Assembly: GCF_001645125.1 (NCBI RefSeq)
Contig: NZ_LXKA01000336.1
Coordinates: forward strand, 1 to 56,563
DNA from: Paraburkholderia ginsengiterrae
GTDB taxonomy: Bacteria; Pseudomonadota; Gammaproteobacteria; Burkholderiales; Burkholderiaceae
Direction of reading: 5' to 3'
Length of the DNA stretch: 56,563 nucleotides
This document shows positions 53,225 to 56,563 of this stretch, piece after piece. The notes under the pieces are model-generated. The model saw only the letters and a list, made by a program, of their open reading frames with translations. It ran no database searches and had not been told where the DNA came from. Position 1 is the stretch's first letter. The number at the start of each line of letters is the position of its first letter. The position numbers and the translations under genes were made by a program.

Positions 53225-55309
53225 ATGCTGAACGGAGCAAGGATTCTCGCCTGCGGCTCACGGAGTGCGGTCCGCATGAGTGCGAGACTCCTGGAGAGTG
53301 CTGGGGCGTCGGTCGATGTCATCGATCCGGAGTGCGTTGCGGAAGAACAAGGCCTTCAGCAATTCCAGGCCTATGACGCGGTCATTGTCTCGACAGATAC
53401 GTGTGCGGCGACACTAAAGCGCGCAATCGGCGAGCTTCTGGCGTCCGGCTCCATTATTGTGTGCAACATCACCGCGACCGGTCCGCAAAGCGCCCGTCAG
53501 GGCATGCGCTGGTCGGATGGCCAGATTCAGGCGATAACCGGTTTGATGGATACAACTGGCTTTGCAGACGGCGAGCCTGTCAGGATCGGCATTCCGCTCA
53601 CGGAAGTCTCCGCGGCCATGTACGCTGCGTCGTCGATCTCAGCAGCACTTCGGGTCAGGCAACTTCGCGGGTTCGCACAGAACGTCGATGTCACGTTGTT
53701 CGGTTGCGCGGTCAGCGCGCTGACAACGTTCCTGCCGAACGCGTTCGTCGGTCGGATGGCTGGGCGCGTCGGCAATCGTCATCCCTCGTGCGCGCCGTGG
53801 AACGCCTACCGGACGAGGGACGGCTGGGTGCTCATCTGCACAAGCTCCGAAGACCAGTGGCACAAACTTAAGCATGCCGCGCGTATCGACGGATGCGACG
53901 ATGAGCGGTGCAGTTCGCTTGCGGCGCGGGTGAAGAACGCCGACTACCTCGACCGGATCATCGAAGCATGGACGACTACCTTGACGACCGATGAATGTTC
54001 GACGCTCTGCGAGCAAGCAGGCATAGCAGCCGGTCCGATCGTATCCATCGACGAGTTGGCGCACGAGGCCAACTTCGGCCTGCGCCATCCGGTAGCGTCG
54101 CAGCGGATGCAAAGCGCGGGCATTGATAGCGAAACGTATCGGGACGTGTCTGCGTTCCGTGCGACTTCGCTCGTTTCCAGCCGTCATCCAGTGCAAACGG
54201 TATGTCGCACCGAAGAACGAACGTCTGCTACGCCGCGCGAGCGCGATGCGGACCATCCGGCGCCGGAGAGCACAGGGCCGCTCGCTGGCATAAAGGTCAT
54301 AGAGATCGGTCAATACACGACCGCACCGCTGGTGGGCAAGCACCTTGCGGCCATGGGCGCGCAGGTGACCAAGGTCGAACCTCCCAACGGAGAGACCGCC
54401 CGGGAATGGGCGCCAGGTCAGGGCGGCACGAGTTACTTTTTTGCGTTGAACAACACGGACAAGCACACAATCTCAGCCGACCTCAAGCAGGCGGCCGGGC
54501 GCGACTATCTGGAACGGCTGCTCGCCACCGCCGATGTGCTGGTGGAGAACCTGCGGCCGGGCGCATTGGCGAAACTGGGTTTCGACAGGGACGCGCTTGC
54601 GAGGATCAACCCACGGCTGATCTACTGCTCGATTTCGGGGTTCGGAATCGAGTCGGCCTATCCTTCGCGACCGGCCTTCGACACCGTGATTCAGGCGACG
54701 GGCGGGCTAATGGATCTGAATCGTACCGGGGGCGCGCCTGTGAAAATGGGCGTTTCGGGTGCGGACATTCTGGGCGGCCAGGTGGCACTCTTCGCGGTGG
54801 TTTCCGCACTCGCCGACGAGAACCGGAAAGAGGGCGTGTTCCTGGAAATCGCCATGCAGGATGTCGCCGCATGGTGCTCGCTGTTTTCCGCTGGGAACCC
54901 CGTGCCGGATGGCATGGCTATTCGCTGCGCCGACGGCTACGTCTGGCTCGAAAGCAGTGGTCGCCATGATCTGGAGTCGCTTGAAATTTTCACTCGCCGT
55001 CTACAGTGGAGCAAAGCAACGCGAAAGCGCGCGGTCTCGGAAATAGAGGCGCTCGGGATTCATGCGGTATTCGTCACCCGAGTGGATGAGTTGATCGACG
55101 ACAGCGATTTTCTGTCCGACATGCTGACTGTTGGTCGCGATCCCGACGGTGCCTTCTGGCCAATACTCAAAGTGCCGTACCGGTTCTCGCGCACTCCGGC
55201 AAAGGTCCGGACTGTGCCGGGTCCGCCGGAGTCGGTCGCGGTCGACGACGCGTCGGGCATGAAATCTATCGCCGGCTTGCCGGTTTCGACGGACGGTCCT
55301 TCTTCCTGA
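53225..55309 (+). CDS. Tandem two-domain class III (CaiB/BaiF) CoA-transferase
   Basis: Formyl-CoA-transferase family protein of 694 residues from ATG 53225 (MLNGARILACGSRSAV), with AAGGAGA upstream; the usual length is about 400. The second half (from about residue 350) is a near-complete CaiB fold: GIKVIEIGQYTTAPLVGKHL, NNTDKHTISADLK, and the catalytic-Asp motif RPAFDTVIQATGGLMD. The first half has a diverged N-terminal Rossmann part but a second such motif, WSDGQIQAITGLMD, and the C-terminal lobe (PWNAYRTRDGWVLICTSSED). The second copy appears shortened at its C-terminus. Activates a carboxylate by CoA transfer from another acyl-CoA. Last gene of the operon. Confidence 0.88.
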   Translation: MLNGARILACGSRSAVRMSARLLESAGASVDVIDPECVAEEQGLQQFQAYDAVIVSTDTCAATLKRAIGELLASGSIIVCNITATGPQSARQGMRWSDGQIQAITGLMDTTGFADGEPVRIGIPLTEVSAAMYAASSISAALRVRQLRGFAQNVDVTLFGCAVSALTTFLPNAFVGRMAGRVGNRHPSCAPWNAYRTRDGWVLICTSSEDQWHKLKHAARIDGCDDERCSSLAARVKNADYLDRIIEAWTTTLTTDECSTLCEQAGIAAGPIVSIDELAHEANFGLRHPVASQRMQSAGIDSETYRDVSAFRATSLVSSRHPVQTVCRTEERTSATPRERDADHPAPESTGPLAGIKVIEIGQYTTAPLVGKHLAAMGAQVTKVEPPNGETAREWAPGQGGTSYFFALNNTDKHTISADLKQAAGRDYLERLLATADVLVENLRPGALAKLGFDRDALARINPRLIYCSISGFGIESAYPSRPAFDTVIQATGGLMDLNRTGGAPVKMGVSGADILGGQVALFAVVSALADENRKEGVFLEIAMQDVAAWCSLFSAGNPVPDGMAIRCADGYVWLESSGRHDLESLEIFTRRLQWSKATRKRAVSEIEALGIHAVFVTRVDELIDDSDFLSDMLTVGRDPDGAFWPILKVPYRFSRTPAKVRTVPGPPESVAVDDASGMKSIAGLPVSTDGPSS

Positions 55310-55635
55310 ACGGATCGTCGGCCGTCGAGTAAAGATGTGTGAGGAGATCGGCTTCGGGCAGCGATCACGCGCTCGCACCGATGCGTCCGGCTGGCGGCGT
55401 ACCTGGCAGGCACTTCCTCGTTAGCCGCAAGGAACGCATTGCAGCTTGCGGCTGTGGGTTTGTTGGAGTCGTTCGAATCCTGCGTTCACGTTCGAGCAAA
55501 ACCTTCGCTATTGACGTCCGCGTTCGCATGAGGAGCGGACAGTCGAGCCTTTGCTTCAATCGGCGGCTCAGTGTCGACAAGGGAAATTCGCGGCGAGGCC
55601 GAGCGGGTGACTGACGGGCGCTGGCCGAACTTCCG

Positions 55636-55716
55636 GGTTCGGCCATGAAGCGTCATTCGCTCGCCGTGTCGCTCGGATGTCCAGACGTCGGCTCAGCACC
55701 CAATAACGGCCGTTGA
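55636..55716. repeat. Degenerate dispersed repeat, copy B
   Basis: Partner of the 39944-40022 stretch, in the same orientation. Shared blocks are TTCGGCCATGAAGCGTC, CATTCGC, CAGACGTCGG and ACGGCCGTTGA, with interspersed differences. Neither copy codes for anything I can identify. Confidence 0.5.
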
Positions 55717-55817
55717 GTTTCATCGCACATGTTTCTGGCGTTCACGCATCCTCGGTGACGCCGCGCGTAAGCGCCGGTTGACCCACTGGTGCAAAAGTCT
55801 CACGGACATACCAAGGC

Positions 55818-55988
55818 ATGACGACTACGTTGACGAGCCTTCTCGGCCCCGTCGAAGACTATTGTGAAATCGGACAACTTGATGATTTGCTGAGAGGTCG
55901 TGGTGCAGTCAATGCCGACATTGACGTCCTGCACCACATCCCCCCCTTGGTCGCGGCGGAAATGGCGGTGGTATTTCGGATCGGATGA
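55818..55988 (+). CDS. Short reading frame, possibly the start of a broken gene
   Basis: 56 codons from ATG 55818, reading MTTTLTSLLGPVEDYCEIGQ and LDDLLRGRGAVNADIDVLHH, then IPPLVAAEMAVVFRIG. The acidic, hydrophobic-patterned sequence looks like a real N-terminus but I do not recognise it, and it stops abruptly. A run of seven C at 55940-55946 and an apparent continuation in the next frame (GSDDPYIFGWLAALPAREKR) would fit a frameshift, natural or from sequencing. Confidence 0.3.
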   Translation: MTTTLTSLLGPVEDYCEIGQLDDLLRGRGAVNADIDVLHHIPPLVAAEMAVVFRIG

Positions 55989-56208
55989 CCCGTACATTTT
56001 CGGATGGCTTGCCGCGCTTCCTGCGCGTGAAAAACGCGGTGGCTTGTACCTGGCACGTTATCGTGGCAGCGGCAGGAAAGTGCGCGCGGCCGCTGACGGC
56101 TTCCCGGGACAGCCAAGGCGATCGTCGCACTTCGCAACAATCGCATCGAGTCGGTGCAGCACCAGGAATGAGGGGTGTCGGACGCCCCCGAACGATGCCA
56201 TGCGCGCA

Positions 56209-56257
56209 CGCGCCGCGCCTCATCCGAAAATCCGAAATGAGGCGCAGCGCGTTTTTT
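56209..56257 (+). terminator. Rho-independent terminator facing right
   Basis: Arms CGCGCCGCGCCTCAT and ATGAGGCGCAGCGCG pair with one mismatch across a 13-nt loop and are followed by T6. The T-run overlaps the stop codon of the leftward frame at the right end, as expected between convergent genes. Confidence 0.8.
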
Positions 56258-56434
56258 ATTCGAGCTGGTACTTCTCGCGCACCAGATGCCCGATCCCCGT
56301 GCGGTCGAGGATCGCGAGCGGGCAAAGGAAGGTCACGCGCACCGTGCCGGGCAGCCGACTGATATCGATCGAGCCCGTGATCGTCGCGCGGTTCAGGACC
56401 TCTTCGTACGCGAGCCCCGGCACGGCCGCGGCGC
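56256..56434 (-). CDS. C-terminal end of an unidentified protein, cut by the contig end
   Basis: A leftward frame with no start in the window, ending at the TAA at 56256-56258. The last residues read ATITGSIDISRLPGTVRV, then TFLCPLAILDRTGIGHLV and REKYQLE, with strong codon bias. Only about 59 residues are believable, because the sequence above about 56435 is a fold-back copy and adapter. The family is not recognised. Confidence 0.55.
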
Positions 56435-56464
56435 GCCGCAGGCCGTGACGGGGCTCGCGTACGA
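56404..56464. repeat. Fold-back inverted repeat at the contig end
   Basis: The 24-base arms at 56404-56427 and 56441-56464 are reverse complements with a single mismatch. The 13-base centre is itself almost palindromic (GCGGCGCGCCGC). It immediately precedes adapter sequence, so it is more likely a snap-back library or read artefact than a genomic hairpin. Confidence 0.8.
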
Positions 56465-56563
56465 AAACCGGCTCTTCTACACATCTCCGAGCCCACGAGA
56501 CAAGAGGGCAACTCGTAATCCGTCGGTGGTCAGAAAAAAAACAAAAAGAGAGAACGAGTACAA
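56465..56563 (+). other. Sequencing adapter contamination (Nextera/Illumina read-through) and poly-A
   Basis: Bases 56478-56501 match the Nextera transposase adapter read-through exactly over 24 bases, including CTCCGAGCCCACGAGAC. About 13 bases before this are an imperfect start of the same adapter. Next comes AAGAGGGCA, one base different from an 8-base Nextera index, then a garbled P7-like stretch, then A-runs. This is not genomic DNA. Confidence 0.95.

Follow-up and report, generated by a model that had tools for sequence, protein, structure and literature searches.

Adapter contamination at the ends of contigs has already been published. In the excerpt of Moeller et al. 2024 (PMC11536531) on which we draw, published microbial genome databases hold adapter sequence mainly where contigs end, and the reverse complement mainly where they begin, in isolate and metagenome assemblies alike. 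Fold-back chimeric reads, which arise at inverted repeats or palindromes during library preparation, are described in PMC10908179; in the part of that work used here, human DNA was fragmented by sonication or enzymatically, and the chimeric reads cross to the opposite strand where they meet a palindrome or inverted repeat.

We analyzed the right end of contig C337. The window, meaning the whole stretch of DNA analyzed (56,563 bases), is this contig in full, and the contig belongs to a draft assembly (G000) of 8,533,041 bases in 393 contigs. Since the window spans all of C337, base 56563 is a true contig end, as the earlier note had held. Near the opposite, left end of the contig lies a tandem array (455-808) with 8.4 copies of a 42-base unit.

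The right end invites comparison with both kinds of artefact. As in the contamination reported by Moeller et al. 2024, the adapter stands at a contig end, but it is a Nextera adapter, whereas the excerpt of that paper tests a TruSeq 12-mer. As in the chimeras of PMC10908179, the sequence continues on the opposite strand at an inverted repeat, but here the DNA is that of a bacterial draft and a Nextera adapter lies alongside. The end has the parts, order, orientation and terminal A-run that the Illumina Nextera/Tn5 read-through adapter shows at public contig ends. It differs from an intact Nextera adapter in three mosaic-end mismatches, one inserted index base and a degraded P7-like stretch.

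Parts of the adapter and their occurrence elsewhere

The last 96 bases of the contig (56468-56563) are leftover Nextera read-through adapter, which confirms the artefact. The earlier note had described a 24-base exact Nextera match, followed by an index-like sequence, an error-rich P7-like tail and A-runs in the order expected of read-through. The exact match is present at 56478-56501. Its 22-base core, with up to three mismatches allowed, has a single match in the window and none in 100 dinucleotide shuffles, and it occurs once in the whole 8.5-Mb genome. When 12 i7 indices were compared, the index-like sequence AAGAGGGCA aligned best with AAGAGGCA (score 53; runner-up 47), and two public contigs (L031 and L109) show this adapter with an unaltered AAGAGGCA behind it. 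The score of the index and P7-like part together was reached by none of 2000 shuffles, and that of the P7-like part alone by 18 of 2000. Taken by itself, the P7-like part is a weak match. The stretch 56523-56531 within it is also identical to nine bases at the P5-side end, and the consensus may therefore be a mixture of the two adapter ends.

The adapter is terminal in the contig and points outward, and it has company in the same assembly. A mosaic end with at most three mismatches occurs at four places in the genome (C337, C344, C365 and C348), against one for a reversed-pattern control. Three of these continue on the i5 side, a search whose control gave two. The i5 index S504 scored highest at C344 (88; next 84) and at C348 (70; next 64). 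C365 has a poor i5-side continuation and an uninformative index, where 53 is the best score and belongs to an index other than S504, with three others at 52. The candidate index pair of the library is i7 AAGAGGCA with i5 AGAGTAGA. No fewer than four of the assembly's contig ends contain Nextera adapter.

Within the genus, the 24-mer matched 21 times at up to three mismatches, in 6 of 145 genomes including its own. Public genome contigs gave at least 129 matches on at least 120 stretches, and IMG/VR at least 123 matches on at least 120 stretches; of those listed, 128 of 129 and 122 of 123, respectively, are no more than 250 bases from the outward end, with one internal match in each set. Among the matches listed, those at stretch ends point outward and many go on as index, P7 and A-run. 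The search pattern demanded that 9 of the 19 mosaic-end bases be exact; the mosaic end was free of mismatches in 124 of the 129 and 122 of the 123 matches listed, and had at most two in the remainder. The part order, outward orientation, terminal position, three further ends of the same assembly and unrelated public contigs all support the reading of the right end as Illumina/Nextera adapter.

A blastn search with bases 56468-56545 (E up to 1) returned matches, not necessarily all adapters, in 75 phage and 16 plasmid records. In phage record MK327946.1, titled complete genome, a Nextera adapter lies intact (near 76682-76755), together with its index, P7 and A-runs; it is flanked by CDSs with the annotations baseplate hub subunit and tail lysozyme, one of which crosses the adapter. 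Phage record KX130861.1, also titled complete genome, starts with a degraded Nextera adapter and A-run (bases 4-77), and a CDS called thioredoxin begins inside the adapter-matching stretch. In JAOAJQ010000047.1 (3943-3966), adapter and index are followed by a run of N in mid-contig; here a scaffold was joined across an adapter-bearing end.

Table 1 Features at the right end of C337 and adapter-bearing ends elsewhere in the assembly.
Feature	Location	Strand	Basis
3' end of acetamidase/formamidase-like gene copy, cut by contig end; last reliable genome	56256..56446	-	tblastn
Genomic arm of fold-back	56403..56427	+	inverted repeat I1
GGCCGT, common to genomic order and inverted arm	56441..56446	+	alignments to C211 and relatives stop here; part of I1
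Fold-back, reverse complement of 56403-56421	56447..56465	+	18/19 to local copy, 19/19 to C211
AA between fold-back arm and adapter	56466..56467	+	sequence
Tn5/Nextera mosaic end, 19 bases (C337 right end)	56468..56486	+	3/19 mismatches
Nextera i7-side sequence CCGAGCCCACGAGAC, 15 bases	56487..56501	+	exact, directly after mosaic end
i7 index, AAGAGGGCA	56502..56510	+	one inserted G relative to AAGAGGCA; best of 12 indices
P7-like sequence, error-rich	56511..56533	+	alignment; alone weakly above shuffles
A-rich end of read beyond adapter	56534..56563	+	sequence; A-runs also after intact adapters in public contigs
i5-side adapter, C344 right end (L260)	G000:C344 42556-42706		mosaic end 2 mismatches; i5-side continuation 0 mismatches
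i5-side adapter, C348 left end (L262)	G000:C348 1-63		mosaic end 3 mismatches; i5-side continuation 1 mismatch
i5-side adapter, C365 left end (L259)	G000:C365 1-43		mosaic end 0 mismatches; i5-side continuation 3 mismatches

Loss of genomic order before the adapter

The earlier note had started the artefact at 56465. That boundary moves: the adapter proper begins at 56468, genomic order is already lost after 56446, and the trim begins at 56447. The window ends in a copy of an acetamidase/formamidase-like gene, of which it keeps the last 60-odd residues. Residues 224-287 of a paralog encoded on C211 matched the window at 89% identity by tblastn. The full C211 protein matches Pfam FmdA_AmdA (E 1.4e-28), and the 62-residue window piece searched alone gave no family match. 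We sought the missing 5' part of the C337 copy across the assembly and found it absent, the only matches being the full-length C211 gene and the C337 piece. An Rfam search of 55000-56563 gave no match.

The C211 paralog is collinear with the window over 55830-56446. Relatives L012, L013 and L014 are collinear up to 56446 and L015 up to 56444, and the C211 gene continues past GCCGT, where the window departs. The homolog in the four relatives covers nearly the full 287-residue query at 66-87% identity. The tblastn match of the C211 protein extends to 56450, which we read as chance extension slightly beyond the junction. A local match at L016, in genome G013, runs over the junction (56418-56458, E 8e-7) and speaks against a complete loss of alignment after 56446; because it is gapped and formamidase similarity at the L016 locus falls short of significance (best E 0.064), we attribute it to chance resemblance between GC-rich palindromic sequences. 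The duplication between the window (55830-56446) and C211 amounts to about 600 bases, comprising intergenic sequence and the 3' end of the formamidase-like gene, and the window duplicate lacks more than 60 intergenic bases found in C211.

Where collinearity with the relatives ends, we found an inverted copy of the adjoining sequence, which the earlier note, sound on the adapter, had missed. The 25-nt arm of inverted repeat I1 is 96% complementary to 56441-56465, with one mismatch and a 13-nt loop. The sole mismatch between the fold-back arm and the local forward copy is at 56420, which is G in the forward copy and T in C211, L012, L015 and the arm itself; this G is a possible consensus error close to the contig end. 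The arm and the two bases that follow it (56447-56467) are best read as part of a chimeric insert formed by fold-back; the loss of collinearity and the position next to the adapter suggest that the chimera arose in the library.

Within 60 bases of the insert end, the longest exact inverted match in the window is 17 bases. Inverted matches reaching 10, 12 and 15 bases occurred at 10, 4 and 0 of 248 public adapter ends (252 matches minus 4 with fewer than 1000 bases before the adapter) and at 3, 0 and 0 of 248 internal controls. The other three adapter ends of the assembly reach at most 8 bases and 500 internal points at most 12. Forty other contig starts, taken from the 393 contigs and partly picked because their numbers stood in an earlier listing, reach at most 14 (4 of 40 have at least 10, none at least 15). 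We considered fold-backs as a general companion of adapter-bearing ends and as a feature of many ends in this assembly; neither is supported, with no match of 15 bases or more at the 248 public ends or the 40 contig starts. The C337 fold-back is unusual and no usual companion of adapters.

Origin of the contig end

We are nearly certain that the end is Nextera read-through of a short insert, itself a fold-back chimera, that was kept as a contig end. One or a few Nextera reads from short inserts would underlie the consensus here, having passed through the insert into the i7-side adapter and its index, then into the P7 end and the A-rich signal after it. In the insert, the strand ending in GGCCGT would have paired, inside a palindromic and GC-rich stretch, with an ACGGCC located 13 bases upstream, or alternatively with the paralogous strand, the GGCCGT at 56441-56446 being the likely priming microhomology, and backward extension would then have added about 20 bases ahead of the adapter. 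The chimeric end would have been retained by the assembler because the true continuation was missing, and sequence errors probably let the adapter escape trimming. Several observations count against this explanation: the three mosaic-end mismatches exceed the maximum of two among the public matches listed, the P7-like part alone is weakly above shuffles, public and other own adapter ends lack a comparable fold-back, and C365 shows a poor i5-side continuation with an index other than S504 scoring best.

In one rival account the tail is genuine genome that resembles an adapter by chance or is a mosaic end derived from Tn5, the transposon whose ends gave rise to mosaic ends. We regard this as next to impossible: the i7-side 15-mer, the index and the A-tail are synthetic parts, the tail is terminal and outward-pointing, and on the single match in the genome, the shuffles and the contig-end pattern of the public matches listed we reject a natural origin. 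A different account leaves the adapter artefactual and takes the inverted repeat at 56403-56465 as real, a decayed duplicate gene ending in a natural hairpin. The window copy is indeed a second copy whose remainder is absent from the assembly, and the gene may truly be broken there; the arm, with its 17-base exact match, also exceeds anything at the 40 contig starts or the 500 internal points. The repeat, however, lies right beside the adapter; the gene is uninterrupted and free of such a repeat in the paralog and relatives; and the arm matches the paralog exactly but not the local copy, which is compatible with a chimera. We therefore consider a natural hairpin very unlikely, and slightly less likely still in the form in which the 25-base repeat both terminates a second, decayed copy of the formamidase gene and halted the assembly.

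The fold-back reading itself leaves two possible templates. The source of the arm at 56447-56465 could be the C211 paralog, reached by an intermolecular template switch, and not the local strand. Its identity of 19/19 to C211, against 18/19 to the local forward copy, speaks for this, but the G at 56420 may be an error in the forward-copy consensus, C211, L012 and L015 all having T. Copying from C211 is possible, and we hold it to be somewhat improbable.

Trimming and gene calls

The correct trim is 56447-56563, 117 bases, which is more than the adapter alone, and trimming is needed at least at C344, C348 and C365 as well. A small warning follows for screening: an adapter screen by itself can leave a chimeric stub in place. 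The earlier note had called any gene over the last 100 bases invalid, and frames running into the end are indeed spurious: the frame at 56286-56561 (+) has an artefactual end, and that at 56256-56561 (-) an artefactual start. This is an ordinary artefact whose boundary lies slightly earlier than first stated, and the last ~117 bases of C337, fold-back stretch and adapter together, are a product of the laboratory, without biology.
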